Shown here one piece after another: positions 19,657 to 41,264 of a stretch of DNA of 64,000 nt. Each line of letters begins with the position of its first letter. Position 1 is the first letter of the stretch. This DNA comes from Gracilibacillus lacisalsi DSM 19029. GTDB lineage: Bacteria > Bacillota > Bacilli > Bacillales > Amphibacillaceae. The stretch is taken from NCBI RefSeq assembly GCF_000377765.1, contig NZ_KB898666.1, forward strand, positions 62,001 to 126,000. The letters run 5' to 3'. The notes under the pieces are model-generated. The model searched no databases. It saw only the letters and a list, made by a program, of their open reading frames with translations, and was not told where the DNA came from. The position numbers and the translations under genes are program-made.

Positions 19657-20589
19657 TTATTTTCTTCTTTGCAGAAATTTACTATATAAAGAAGCCAAAA
19701 CTTGTTGAAATAACATGCCGACAACAACCGGAACAGCCACTGGTCCAGGAAAATACTGAACTGCGATAACGGCTCCGGCGCTAATATTTCTCATTCCACT
19801 ACTAAACGTTAAAGAAATGACATCTTGACTAGCCCGTTTTAACCACTTCGACAACAACCAAGCTAAGTAATAGCCACTAGCAGCAACAAAAAACATCGTT
19901 ATAGCTACTTTAATCAGATGAAAATCAACATTCAATAAATAATCTGCAACTTCTGAGCTATTGATCATAATGACTAATGCTAATGCTATTTTCGAAAAAG
20001 GAGCTAAGCGAGGACTCCATTTCTCATGAATTCCTCCACGAGTTGTTTCATGTAAAATCATACCTAATATAGACGGAATAACGATCATGATAAACAGACC
20101 TTTCATCATCGCCCACACTTCTAAATCAACGGATGCTCCGATAAATAATGATAGCGATAACGGGACAATAAAAGGGGATAAGATCGTATCGATTAAAATA
20201 ATGGATAATGTTAAGGCGACATTTCCTTTATTCATAGAAACCCAAATAAAACTTGTAATCCCTGTAGGGATAATCATTGCTAATACAAAACCAATAACCG
20301 TTAAATGATCATTGCTAAAGGTGAGTGTTCCGATTAGAAACGCCCATAAAGGCATTAAAATATGTAAGATAACAAGTGCTATCAATATCGATAAAGGGTG
20401 AGCTACCACTCGATATAGAGCAACAAAATTCAGGCTCAAACTCCCTGCAAATGTCATAAATGCAAAAATCCAGATAACCCAATGATCAAATTGAATAAAA
20501 AAATCTGCAAATAATACTCCAATAATTACACTCGCTGGCGCGATAAAGGGCATAATTCGTTGTAGTATTTGGTTCAAATGATTTAACAT
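19657..20589 (-). CDS. Bile acid:sodium symporter (BASS) family transporter
   Basis: 310 residues with about nine to ten transmembrane segments; the family motifs ALVIMINSSEVADYL and SSGMRNISAGAVIAVQYFP are visible (the latter is the substrate/Na+ crossover region). The substrate in Bacillaceae is uncertain (organic acids, pantoate or similar have been shown for other members). AGGAG lies 9 nt before the ATG. It follows the YlmA-like ATPase gene by 20 nt, so both are probably one transcript, although functional coupling is not evident. Confidence 0.85.
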   Translation of the reverse strand: MLNHLNQILQRIMPFIAPASVIIGVLFADFFIQFDHWVIWIFAFMTFAGSLSLNFVALYRVVAHPLSILIALVILHILMPLWAFLIGTLTFSNDHLTVIGFVLAMIIPTGITSFIWVSMNKGNVALTLSIILIDTILSPFIVPLSLSLFIGASVDLEVWAMMKGLFIMIVIPSILGMILHETTRGGIHEKWSPRLAPFSKIALALVIMINSSEVADYLLNVDFHLIKVAITMFFVAASGYYLAWLLSKWLKRASQDVISLTFSSGMRNISAGAVIAVQYFPGPVAVPVVVGMLFQQVLASLYSKFLQRRK

Positions 20590-20609: not shown

Positions 20610-21386
20610 TTATTTCTTCCTTAACCTTGGACGTCGTTCTGTCCAATCTACCTCTACTGGTACACCAAAAAATTCTGTTAAATTTTCCGAATTGATCATA
20701 GCATTTGTTAGGCCTTGATTAAATACACGTCCGTCCTTTAATAACAAAGTTTTCGAAAAAGTTGGTATTATTTCCTCCACATGATGTGTGACATATATAA
20801 TCGAAGCTGCATTTTCCCCTTGACTAATATGCTCAATCGACTCTAGTAATTTCTCTCTTGCGATAAAATCTAATCCATTTGTCGGCTCGTCTAAAATTAA
20901 TAATTTGGGGTCGTTCATGAGTGCTCGTCCGATTAATACACGTTGTTGTTCCCCTTGAGATAATGTTCGGTAGGCACGATTAGCATAAGAGAAGCAATCA
21001 AGATCCTTCAATAGCTGTTGTGCTTTGGCACGCATCTCGTCTGTAGGGGTTTCATATAAACCAATCGAAGCAAACGCACCGCTTAATACAACTTGGTATG
21101 CACTATCCGTACCATAAATTCGTTGTTTTAAGATGGATGATACAATACCGATTTGTTGTCTTAACTGCTCTCCGAGTACATCTTTACCAAATTGCCTTCC
21201 AATCACATTAACTTGACCTTCTGTTGGAAAATAATAGGAACATAACATATGTAAAAGCGCTGTTTTTCCTGCACCATTCAATCCTAATAATGTCCAGTGC
21301 TCTCCTTTCTCTATTTTCCAATTGATATCTTTTAGTATCCAATTTCCTTCTTTTTTTAGTCCTACTTTTTGTAAATTCAACACCAT
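20610..21386 (-). CDS. ylmA: ABC transporter ATP-binding protein, YlmA type
   Basis: 258-residue stand-alone ABC ATPase with Walker A GLNGAGKT, signature LSQGEQQRVLIGRAL, Walker B LLILDEPTNGLD and H-loop VTHHVEE. It carries the C-terminal FGVPVEVDWTERRPRL segment typical of B. subtilis YlmA and ModF-like proteins. No permease gene is adjacent, as in B. subtilis, so its transport partner is unknown. Transcribed leftward, away from a Fur box located about 100 bp upstream of the start. Confidence 0.78.
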   Translation of the reverse strand: MVLNLQKVGLKKEGNWILKDINWKIEKGEHWTLLGLNGAGKTALLHMLCSYYFPTEGQVNVIGRQFGKDVLGEQLRQQIGIVSSILKQRIYGTDSAYQVVLSGAFASIGLYETPTDEMRAKAQQLLKDLDCFSYANRAYRTLSQGEQQRVLIGRALMNDPKLLILDEPTNGLDFIAREKLLESIEHISQGENAASIIYVTHHVEEIIPTFSKTLLLKDGRVFNQGLTNAMINSENLTEFFGVPVEVDWTERRPRLRKK

Positions 21387-21484: not shown

Positions 21485-21513
21485 TTGAAAATGATTCTCA
21501 TTATCGTTATAAT
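21485..21513 (+). promoter_or_regulatory. Sigma-A promoter under a Fur box
   Basis: TTGAAA (21485-21490), exactly 17 bp, TATAAT (21508-21513). The rightward transcript should begin near 21520. Confidence 0.8.
21487..21505. promoter_or_regulatory. Fur box
   Basis: GAAAATGATTCTCATTATC closely matches the 19-bp Fur consensus GATAATGATAATCATTATC and covers the -35 box and spacer of the promoter, so iron-loaded Fur should repress it. Confidence 0.85.
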
Positions 21514-21519
21514 ATATTT

Positions 21520-21639
21520 AATCACATAGAGTGATGAAACATTCCCTTTACACATATCTTTTGTTACCCCCAATCAACAAAAGTTCAAGGATGTTTCCCA
21601 TTCCATTAGAGTAGCTAATAAATAGCTGCTCTATTTTTT
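21520..21639 (+). ncRNA. Candidate iron-responsive small RNA (FsrA-like by design)
   Basis: A perfect promoter overlapped by a Fur box is followed by about 120 nt without a start codon/SD pair. Predicted structure: a small 5' hairpin (ATCAC/GTGAT), a long stem GAAACAT/ATGTTTC enclosing CTTTTGTT/AACAAAAG, then the terminator. Unpaired C-rich patches (CATTCCC, TTACCCCC, TTTCCCATTCC) could pair with GGGGG/GGAGG ribosome binding sites, as described for the Fur-controlled sRNA FsrA of B. subtilis. The T-run ends at 21639, about 190 bp before katA, which has its own promoter. An attenuating leader for katA is the alternative. Confidence 0.6.
21608..21639 (+). terminator. Terminator of the candidate small RNA
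   Basis: AGAGTAGCTA and TAGCTGCTCT pair over a 5-nt loop, followed by ATTTTTT. Confidence 0.85.
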
Positions 21640-21738
21640 GTTTAGTTAATATTTTTATCGGGTAAAGAAATATGAAGTGAAACTATGGTTTAACACCTTG
21701 ACAAATGGAAGAAGACATAGATTTTACACAAAATTTAT

Positions 21739-21753
21739 TTAAAATTATTATAA
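21739..21753. promoter_or_regulatory. PerR box upstream of katA
   Basis: TTAAAATTATTATAA differs at one position from the PerR consensus TTATAATTATTATAA and lies just upstream of the katA -35 box. Peroxide-induced derepression is expected. Confidence 0.75.
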
Positions 21754-21760
21754 ATAAATA

Positions 21761-21788
21761 TTGATTTTCATAAGATTTGTATTATAAT
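21761..21788 (+). promoter_or_regulatory. katA promoter
   Basis: TTGATT, 16-bp spacer, TATAAT (21783-21788), about 40 bp before the katA start. Confidence 0.65.
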
Positions 21789-21830: not shown

Positions 21831-23300
21831 ATGAGTCAAGAAAAAAAATACTTAACGACTGCTTCTGGTGCGCCAGTAGGAGATAATCAAAACTCCATTA
21901 CTGCAGGCCATAGAGGACCAACATTAATTCAAGACGTTCATTTACTAGAAAAACTAGCTCATTTTAATCGTGAAAGAGTTCCAGAAAGAGTTGTACACGC
22001 TAAAGGTGCAGGAGCACACGGCTATTTTGAAGTAACAAATGACGTTTCTAAATATACAAAAGCAGACTTCTTATCTGAAGTAGGCAAAAAAACACCTATG
22101 TTCATCCGCTTCTCCACTGTAGCTGGCGAATTAGGTTCTGCCGATACAGTACGTGACCCGCGTGGTTTCGCTGTTAAATTTTATACAGATGAAGGGAACT
22201 ATGATTTAGTTGGGAATAACACGCCAGTATTCTTTATCCGTGATGCGATTAAATTCCCAGACTTTATTCATACACAAAAACGTAACCCGCAAACACACTT
22301 AAAAGATAAAAATGCGGTTTGGGATTTCTGGTCATTATCACCAGAGTCACTTCACCAAATTACTATTTTACACTCTGACCGTGGTATCCCTGCGACTCTT
22401 CGTCATCAAAATGGCTACGGAAGCCACACATTTAAATGGGTAAATAAAGATGGAGAAGCATTCTATGTGAAATATCACTTCAAAACAGATCAAGGCATTA
22501 AAAACCTAGATCCTAAAGTGGCAGATGAACTTGCAGGTACAAATCCTGACTATCATACTGAAGATCTATTTAATGCTATTGAAGAAGGTAACTATCCTTC
22601 TTGGACATTAAAAGTTCAAATCATGCCTGAAGCGGACGCGCAAAACTACCGTTACGATCCATTTGATGTAACAAAAGTATGGCCACATGAAGACTATCCA
22701 TTAGTTGAAGTTGGTAAAATGGTATTAGATCGTAATCCTGAGAACTATTTTGCAGAAGTAGAGCAAGCTGCATTTTCTCCTGGACACTTTGTTCCTGGAA
22801 TTGAAGCATCTCCAGATAAAATGCTTCAAGGTCGTTTGTTTGCCTATTCTGATGCACATCGTTACCGTATTGGAGCAAACCATGAGTCATTACCAATTAA
22901 CCGTGCTAAATCACCGGTTAATAACTATCAACGTGATGGGTTTATGAGCCATGATGGTAATGGTGGCAGCGCACCTAACTATGAACCTAATAGCTTTAGT
23001 GATGCACCAAAAGAAACACCTGAAAACAAAATTAGTCCATATGAAGTTTCTGGATTTGCTGATAGTGTTCCATATGATCAAGATGATCACTACTCTCAGC
23101 CTCGTGCATTATTCCGTGATGTAATGAATGATGAAGAGCGCGAGCGTTTAATTCAAAACTTCGCTGACCACATGAGTGCTGTAACTCGCGAAGGTATTGT
23201 GGACCGTCAATTAGAAAACTTCTACAAAGTAGCTCCTGAATTAGCAGAAGGTGTTGCTGCTAAATTAGGCGTAGAAGTACCAGCAAGTGTAAAAGAATAA
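21831..23300 (+). CDS. katA: Catalase (small-subunit haem catalase)
   Basis: Decomposes hydrogen peroxide in the cytoplasm. 489 residues; the distal catalytic His56 lies in [13 protein letters not shown], Asn in [13 protein letters not shown], and the proximal haem Tyr in [14 protein letters not shown]. The start is ATG 21831 after GGAGAGGTG; the longer in-frame start at 21777 would lie in the promoter. It is preceded by a PerR box and its own promoter, and further upstream by a Fur-controlled candidate sRNA, so iron and peroxide responses meet in this intergenic region. Confidence 0.97.
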
Positions 23301-39572: not shown

Positions 39573-41264
39573 TTATTGATCTGTACGATTGATAAAGTCT
39601 GTTACGGCACCTTGTGATGAGCAGGAAACGTTGTGCGCGTACTTTCCTAACACACCTCGTTTGTATAGCTCTGGTGCTTTCCAGTTTGCACGACGTTTCG
39701 CTAATTCTTCGTCCGAAACATCCATTGAAATTTCTTTTTGTTCTGAATCAATGGTAACCATATCTCCTTCTTCTAAGAAAGCAATTGGTCCACCTGATTG
39801 TGCTTCCGGTGCAATATGTCCTACTACGAGACCATGTGTACCACCAGAGAATCGACCATCTGTTAATAACGCTACTTTTTGGCCTAAGCCTTTGCCAACT
39901 AAGATTGCAGAAATAGAAAGCATTTCCGGCATACCTGGTCCACCTTTTGGCCCTACATAACGAATAACTAGAACATCTCCTTCTTTGATCTCGTTATTCA
40001 TTACTGCGTTTGTTGCTTCGTCTTCATTATTAAACACACGTGCAGGACCTGTGTGACGTTTTACTTTTACACCAGATACCTTTGCAACCGCACCGCTCGG
40101 TGAAAGATTACCTTTTAATACGATTAATGGTCCATCTGCACGATATGGATCACTTAATGGATGAATAATATCTTGGTCATCAGATAGAATTGGTGCATCC
40201 GCATAATTTTCTGCGATCGTCTTACCAGTAACAGTTAAACAGTCGCCATGTAAGAATCCATTATCTAATAATAGACGCATTACAGCCGGAACTCCACCAA
40301 TTTTATGTAAGTCTTCCATTACATATTTACCACTTGGCTTCAAGTCTGCTAAGTGTGGTACTTTTTCTTGGATACGATTAAAGTCATCAATTTTCAGATC
40401 TACTTCTGCTGCATTAGCAATCGCTAATAAGTGAAGGATCGCGTTAGTAGATCCACCTAAAGCCATAACAGCAGTGATTGCATTTTCGAATGCTTTCTTC
40501 GTTAAAATATCTTTCGGATAAATACCTTTCTCTAACAAATGGTAAACAGCTTCTCCTGCTTTACGACAATCTTCAAATTTCTCAGGAGATTCCGCTGGGT
40601 TAGAAGAGCTTCCAGGTAAACTCATACCTAGTGCTTCTACAGCCGTCGCCATAGTATTTGCTGTATACATACCACCACAAGAACCTGCACCTGGGCATGC
40701 ATGACATTCAATTCCTCGCAATTCTTCATCATCAATATCACCGTTATTGTGTTTACCTACCCCTTCAAAAACAGACACAATATCTAACTTTTCCCCTTTA
40801 CGGTATCCTGGCGCAATCGTTCCACCATAAACAAAAACAGCTGGTACATCAGAACGAGCAATCGAAATTAAACAACCAGGGATGTTCTTATCACAACCAC
40901 CAATTGCCACGTAACCATCTAGGTTCTCTGCTCCTACTACTGTTTCAATCGAGTCTGCAATTACATCACGACTTGGAAGGGAATAACGCATTCCCGACGT
41001 ACCCATCGAAATACCATCAGATACTGTGATTGTATTAAAAATTAACGGAACACCACCAGCTTCGCGAGCGCCATCCTTAGCCTGGATCGCTAAGTCATCT
41101 AAGTGGATATTACATGGTGTTACCTCACTCCATGTACTTGCTACACCAATCATTGGCTTTTTAAAATCTTCATCTGTTACCCCAACAGCACGTAACATCG
41201 CACGGTTCGGAGCACGTTTTGCATCATCAAATACATTACTTTTGATACGTAAGTCCTTCCCCAT
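39573..41264 (-). CDS. ilvD: Dihydroxy-acid dehydratase
   Basis: Dehydrates dihydroxyisovalerate and dihydroxymethylvalerate in valine/isoleucine synthesis. 563 residues; the Fe-S ligands are visible in [31 protein letters not shown] and the N-terminal VTPCNIHL, and GRFSGGTHG is near the C-terminus. The start is ATG 41264 after GGGAGG; the upstream in-frame GTG (41282) overlaps that site. No other ilv/leu genes are adjacent. A CodY-like box lies about 60 bp upstream. Confidence 0.96.

Follow-up and report, generated by a model that had tools for sequence, protein, structure and literature searches.

The locus and the predicted transcript unit

The stretch analyzed here is a 64,000-nt segment of contig NZ_KB898666.1 of Gracilibacillus lacisalsi DSM 19029 (hereafter the window), and the element under consideration is a predicted small RNA (sRNA) of around 120 nt (21520..21639, forward strand), located between a divergently oriented upstream gene for an ABC transporter ATPase (20610..21386, reverse strand; PF00005) and the catalase gene katA (21831..23300, forward strand; PF00199, E value 2.7e-204). 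The ends of the transcript were deduced from its promoter and terminator, with +1 placed at around 21520 according to the TATAAT hexamer and the length measured from there through the T run. A consensus scan revealed a sigma-A-type promoter, TTGAAA-N17-TATAAT (21485..21513, forward strand, with TTGAAA at 21485-21490 and TATAAT at 21508-21513), which was the top one among the 15 promoter-like sites present between positions 20000 and 24500. The original prediction had described this promoter as perfect; the two hexamers and their spacing are as indicated there, but 11 of the 12 consensus positions are matched, so that the adjective has to be dropped.

The other elements proposed for this unit were confirmed. 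The -35 hexamer and the spacer are overlapped by a Fur box, GAAAATGATTCTCATTATC (21487..21505, forward strand), that matches 17 of the 19 positions of what we take to be the Fur-box consensus. This is the sole place in the 64 kb of the window with three mismatches or fewer, while 0.10 such matches are expected from shuffled sequences, and no second box was found among the other 19-mers with at least 12 matches, which only overlap the first one (12/19 and 14/19). The strong terminator that had been proposed to close a unit of about 120 nt is also present (21607..21639, forward strand), consisting of an 11-bp stem (21607-21633) followed by a U tract. Judged from these sequence features, the unit is real, and its reading as a Fur-controlled, non-coding, C-rich sRNA is supported.

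Conservation and structure of the RNA

DNA matching the region from promoter to terminator is present in 16 of the 17 genomes of the genus Gracilibacillus (the genus being defined by named matches), and the RNA was undetected in just one member, G007. A covariance model of the RNA core (R1; 69 positions, 16 sequences) located the RNA in 20 of 159 genomes of the family, distributed among four genera, with four of the 20 belonging to the three other genera. Among 397 sampled genomes of the order, its four matches were all in the own genus. These searches were run with strict filters and few candidates were scored per genome, and diverged copies may therefore have been missed. A pattern scan of named genomes yielded 14 stretches, ten of them from Gracilibacillus, two from Aquibacillus, one from Saliterribacillus and one from a Bdellovibrionales metagenome bin, the last one being a partial and weak match to the R1 model (27.3 bits) that is probably due to chance. 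Given this conservation across genomes of the genus and the family, the RNA unit is not a chance sequence.

The individual signals are also maintained. TTGAAA and TATAAT hexamers with a spacing of 17-18 nt are visible in all 20 homologous loci, two of which (L006 and L009) have an overlapping second TATAAT besides the properly spaced one; 17-18 of the 19 Fur-box positions are matched in 19 loci and 14 in the remaining one (L019, from G006); and downstream of the loop hairpin described below, 20/20 homologues have a further hairpin, of variable sequence, with a T run behind it. In 18 loci the RNA is flanked by the ABC-ATPase gene and katA, and katA is also the downstream neighbor in the other two.

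As the original prediction held, the transcript is highly structured: the fold of 21520-21641 has a predicted energy of -31.1 kcal/mol, compared with -13.7 kcal/mol (sd 3.0) for shuffled sequences (z = -5.8). From the sequences and their predicted folds, three elements can be delineated upstream of the terminator. The 5' hairpin, AUCAC-AUAGA-GUGAU (21521..21535, forward strand), has arms that vary yet pair among members of the genus (UCAC/GUGA, elsewhere GCAC/GUGC). An alternative pairing beats it in the minimum free energy structure of the window copy; in L015 it can be discerned by eye (UACAC/GUGUA) and is not part of the predicted fold, and it was not seen in the predicted folds of L016, L017 and L327. 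The second element, a long-range helix (21536..21597, forward strand), is formed by GAAACAUUC (21536-21544) and GGAUGUUUC (21589-21597), with 97.6% of cells paired across 14 distinct rows and almost no covariation, although it was not found in the predicted folds of L013, L014 and L019. In the core as a whole, one pair was changed on both sides, a result reached by 132 of 500 shuffles, and since the helix sequence hardly varies, covariation is uninformative for or against the structure.

The long-range helix encloses the hairpin CUUUUGUU-ACCCCCAAUC-AACAAAAG (21558..21583, forward strand), whose loop contains the CCCCC run (21567-21571) that is the predicted pairing site. The sequence GUUACCCCC is present in 20/20 homologous transcripts, with the C run in the hairpin loop. 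Three exposed C-rich patches had been anticipated, and one of them was found: the predicted unpaired probability of CCCCC is 1.0, while partial pairing is predicted for the remaining two C runs (probabilities of being unpaired of 0.36-0.52 for 21544-21546 and of 0.01, 1.0 and 0.38 for 21597-21599).

Complementarity to ribosome binding sites

Potential targets were ranked by accessibility-weighted ungapped pairing among 761 gene starts, which represent around one-fifth of the genome and come from stretches selected in part for containing acnA, sdhC and leuCD. Among these, hemA ranked 1, acnA 6, sdhC 13, ilvD 14, sdhB 41, sdhA 73, the own leuD 712 and katA 735. The Shine-Dalgarno (SD) form GGGGGUAAC is found before start codons at recurring places across the genus, acnA and leuD among them; when all places are considered, its reversed control is the more frequent of the two in 15 of the 17 genus genomes.

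The presence of this form at acnA is associated with that of the RNA. In a first sample of 61 genomes, the acnA SD was GGGGGUAAC in all 18 genomes with the RNA, in none of the 19 genomes of the family without it, and in one of 24 from elsewhere in the order. A second sample was chosen mainly by acnA similarity; in it, the form was carried by both additional genomes with the RNA (G070 and G148), and also by nine of 29 further family genomes without detected RNA, namely G068, G071, G147 and G149-G154. Combining both samples, GGGGGUAAC precedes acnA in 20/20 genomes with the RNA versus 9/48 family genomes without it (Fisher test, 1.2e-10, which ignores kinship). In an acnA tree of 41 genomes, G007 is nested inside the genus, with a local support of 0.96 for the group that it forms with eight RNA-bearing members, and its acnA site is GGGGGUAAU, in which the last base of the GGGGGUAAC form is missing. 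The nine genomes with the acnA site and no detected RNA cluster in the same tree around Aquibacillus genera, and therefore either a diverged RNA exists there or the site predates the present distribution of the RNA.

Complementarity was also observed with a gene for a CDGSH iron-sulfur protein (PF09360, 70 aa) located 48 kb from the RNA, with GGGGGUAAUAAAAG before its ATG. The pairing would extend over 14 nt, one of them a G-U pair, with a total of -13.6 kcal/mol. This gene, which is below the 80-aa limit applied, and that for a TRAP DctP-type binding protein (GUUGGGGGUA, -12.6 kcal/mol), cut by the end of its stretch, were scored apart; both were found through a whole-genome GGGGGU pattern and their ranks carry that selection, including the first place among 762 that the CDGSH gene would occupy. 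The DctP-type protein presumably belongs to another protein family than the DctP of Bacillus subtilis. In syntenic stretches the CDGSH gene was found in seven of ten relatives; all seven keep GGGGGUAAUAAA and five the full 14 nt, so that 12-14 matching bases are present in 8/8 genomes where the gene was found, the own one included. Similarly, hemA was found in six of the nine relatives with stretches, all of which keep UUGGGGGUA (7/7 with the own genome); it was not found in the G007 stretch examined. A weaker predicted target is ilvD, encoding dihydroxy-acid dehydratase (39573..41264, reverse strand; PF00920), which would pair through the 3' C-rich stretch UCCCAUUCCA.

Two genes of the leucine pathway, the own leuD and leuC, were considered and rejected as targets: the SD of the own leuD is GGAGGCUACC, with no match, and the resolved starts of leuC show GGAG-type SDs. 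The leuD SD is GGGGGUAAC in nine of the 15 genus relatives with the RNA and not in G007; at this gene, a target site may have appeared or disappeared among members of the same genus. The katA gene was also ruled out, given the rank of its start region and the -3.6 kcal/mol of the best site in its leader, neither of which offers useful pairing.

Two short open reading frames (ORFs) were also noted in this survey. A Spo0E-like gene (PF09388, 59-aa ORF; L118, contig C7 of G000, around 233220, reverse strand) has GGGGGUAAC as its SD, a match that might possibly represent a link to sporulation; similar strings occur in around 12 of the 17 genus genomes, the own copy being the one identified. The second place among the 761 starts corresponds to an 88-aa ORF (start 8025 of L390, contig C3 of G000, around 208025) with UUGGGGGU as SD, which is not an obvious iron gene and which we take to be UPF0297; TTGGGGGTGCTTCCATG recurs in at least eight of the 17 genus genomes.

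Interpretation, alternatives and relation to known sRNAs

We consider it probable that this element is a Fur-repressed, trans-acting, iron-sparing sRNA, a reading in which expression, Fur binding, pairing and repression are all derived from the sequence. When iron is sufficient, Fur-Fe(II) bound to the promoter box would keep the RNA off, and under iron shortage the RNA of about 120 nt would be made. The loop hairpin would then present its unpaired CCCCC to SDs of the GGGGGU type, joined in the pairing with some targets by a portion of the stem's 5' arm, and translation of iron-using or haem-pathway genes would be blocked: those for aconitase (acnA), the CDGSH iron-sulfur protein and HemA, perhaps also sdhC/sdhB, leuD in the nine relatives mentioned above and possibly the TRAP DctP-type protein and ilvD. 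That the C-rich loop matches the ribosome binding sites of several iron-enzyme genes suggests that the RNA probably switches them off when iron is short. Action on G-rich ribosome binding sites, as originally put forward, is thus possible, with conservation, Fur box, loop and complementarity in agreement.

Several observations weigh against this interpretation. The Mann-Whitney p value of 0.0012 obtained with the eight genes whose ranks are given above corresponds to a list that was completed once the ranking was known (hemA and ilvD above all); without these two genes it becomes 0.022, and with acnA, sdhC and katA alone, 0.06. When only the loop was tested, the real mean rank was equalled by eight of 100 shuffled loops and by 33 of 100 in which CCCCC was kept; since so many of the latter do as well, much of the target signal amounts to CCCCC facing G-rich SDs. 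These are common, with 144 GGGGGU places before an ATG in the own genome versus 88 in the reversed control, and the high ranks include genes unlinked to iron, such as those we take to be UPF0297 and hisS. The CDGSH and hemA sites were seen solely in RNA-bearing genomes, and the RNA does not pair with either katA or the own leuD. The acnA form also occurs in nine genomes of the family with no detected RNA, and its association with the RNA is confounded by kinship, perhaps also by diverged copies that were missed. The structure itself is altered in two genomes: in G005 (L013) a terminator-like hairpin is inserted between the loop hairpin and the 3' helix arm, and in G006 (L019) the Fur box and the long helix are degraded and the loop hairpin is retained.

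At sdhC the distribution is even reversed. Its SD in the genus is mostly GGGGGGUAC, G007 included, and GGGGGGUA occurs in genomes both with and without the RNA. The GGGGGUAAC form is present in the RNA-bearing G031 and in six of 13 further RNA-less starts (12 from the family, one from the order), namely those of the family genomes G017, G019, G028, G033, G034 and G035 (starts L314, L315, L316, L317, L319 and L323). Being found mainly in RNA-less genomes, this form is independent of the RNA described here, and sdhC was discarded as evidence for targeting. Perhaps another C-rich RNA acts at sdhC in those genomes.

These data also bear on the possibility that the RNA is genuinely a Fur-controlled sRNA but acts mainly on genes other than those for iron enzymes, for example in transport or sporulation, and that the SD form at acnA was simply inherited. 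The presence of GGGGGU-type SDs before several solute-binding protein genes of the own genome, the Spo0E-like gene and the similar strings across the genus, and the RNA-less genomes with the acnA or sdhC forms would fit this idea, while the conserved 12-14 nt of CDGSH complementarity, the position of hemA, acnA and sdhC all within the top 13 of 761, and the fact that in G007 the RNA was undetected and the acnA form is incomplete speak against it, and we regard it as unlikely. A role in cis seems more doubtful still. The unit could be a leader of katA under the control of Fur and a terminator, working as an attenuator with read-through under some condition, in line with the constant position of katA downstream and a gap of merely around 190 nt in the window. 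Nevertheless, that distance varies among loci, the terminator-like hairpin and T run are kept in 20/20 despite sequence change, the loop hairpin is the most conserved part, and downstream of the terminator katA appears to have signals of its own: a separate promoter, TTGATT-16-TATAAT (21761..21788, forward strand), found by consensus scan only, and a PerR-like box, TTAAAATTATTATAA (21739..21753, forward strand), with one mismatch to what we presume to be the PerR consensus. This box is weak on its own, because 2.0 sites with up to two mismatches are expected by chance in the window. Of the link to a PerR-controlled katA that had been suggested, the conserved neighborhood and the box remain; a direct functional connection is not supported, since katA shows no useful pairing.

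A coding function can be given even less weight. The expectation that the transcript would contain no SD and start was partly right: there is no clear SD, but the window copy does have a 26-codon frame with its ATG at 21534, the first 17 codons of which are kept in close relatives, and a small conserved peptide (MKHSLYTYLLLPPINKS...) could be conceived as the product, with or without an RNA function. The ATG is present in ten of the 20 homologues and missing in the other ten, and indels of 1-2 nt shift the frame after around codon 17, so this is not a conserved coding sequence; the conservation tracks stems and loop instead. With starts lost and frames shifted, a conserved peptide was ruled out, and we hold a peptide product to be extremely improbable.

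The remaining alternative concerns FsrA of B. subtilis, which the layout had brought to mind. The general likeness is real: FsrA is Fur-repressed, C-rich and pairs with G-rich sites (PMC12871923, PMC11257911), and here too there is a Fur box on the promoter, an unpaired C-rich stretch between hairpins and complementarity to the SDs of aconitase and sdhC, which are FsrA targets and candidates here, even if the sdhC match is uninformative in this respect, given that its fuller form occurs more often in genomes lacking the RNA. Membership of the FsrA family, however, was not borne out. The Rfam model of FsrA (RF02273) found the B. subtilis control and none in 61 relatives, the own genome included, under strict filters that may lose weak matches, and by this test the RNA is not FsrA. 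At the RNA locus no Rfam family reached its curated threshold, and a scan up to an E value of 10 gave ten matches, all at chance level and FsrA not among them. That the RNA is an FsrA orthologue which has diverged beyond the reach of the Rfam model is very unlikely in our opinion, given in addition that the R1 model matches only the own genus in the 397-genome sample of the order and that FsrA is an 84-nt RNA partly supported by FbpABC (PMC12871923), compared with around 120 nt and another predicted fold here.

The iron-sparing sRNA that we favor would find its nearest analogue, going by descriptions in the portions of two papers rather than by sequence comparison, in IsrR of Staphylococcus (PMC9410917, PMC11257911), also Fur-repressed, with C-rich hairpin loops, kept throughout one genus, and with conserved stems of little covariation and a variable terminator. 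Aconitase and Sdh are described as targets of both FsrA and IsrR, and HemA as a target of IsrR (PMC11257911); in our case these are matched by complementarity only, with the ranks given above. The differences, as far as those portions extend, are that IsrR has two Fur boxes and several C-rich loops, while the RNA described here has one Fur box and one exposed C patch, and that IsrR downregulates katA, with which this RNA has no pairing. RoxS/RsaE (RF01820) is likewise a C-rich sRNA of Firmicutes acting on SDs; the match of its model at the locus was at chance level (16.1 bits versus a gathering cut-off of 79; E value 1.8). To our knowledge, RoxS is not Fur-controlled. With RyhB of enteric bacteria the likeness is in the functional idea of a Fur-repressed iron-sparing sRNA, and we know of no reason to expect a sequence relation. 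RyhB works with Hfq (PMC12871923).

From these comparisons, the element is most likely, on the features at hand, a new RNA family within the known functional class of Fur-repressed iron-sparing sRNAs. Whether it represents a separately evolved iron-sparing sRNA of Firmicutes, unrelated by sequence to FsrA, placed beside catalase and with co-evolving target sites (the acnA site tracking the RNA and the 12-14-nt CDGSH site reaching the start codon) is a proposal to which we assign even chances. If true, CDGSH would be a target type absent from the portions of the FsrA and IsrR accounts compared (PMC12871923, PMC11257911, PMC9410917). Fur-controlled iron-sparing sRNAs seem to arise repeatedly from unrelated origins and to converge on the same enzymes, and this would add another case in Firmicutes, in halophiles. 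The occurrence or lack of the RNA and the changes at its target sites can be traced here among close species, G007 included, offering a direct test of sRNA-target co-evolution. A search of the literature on sRNAs or Fur in Gracilibacillus and on Fur-regulated sRNAs gave, by titles and the beginning of abstracts, none about this RNA. Elsewhere in the window, a thiamine pyrophosphate (TPP) riboswitch (RF00059; 6532-6639, reverse strand; 82.9 bits) is the sole Rfam match at threshold.
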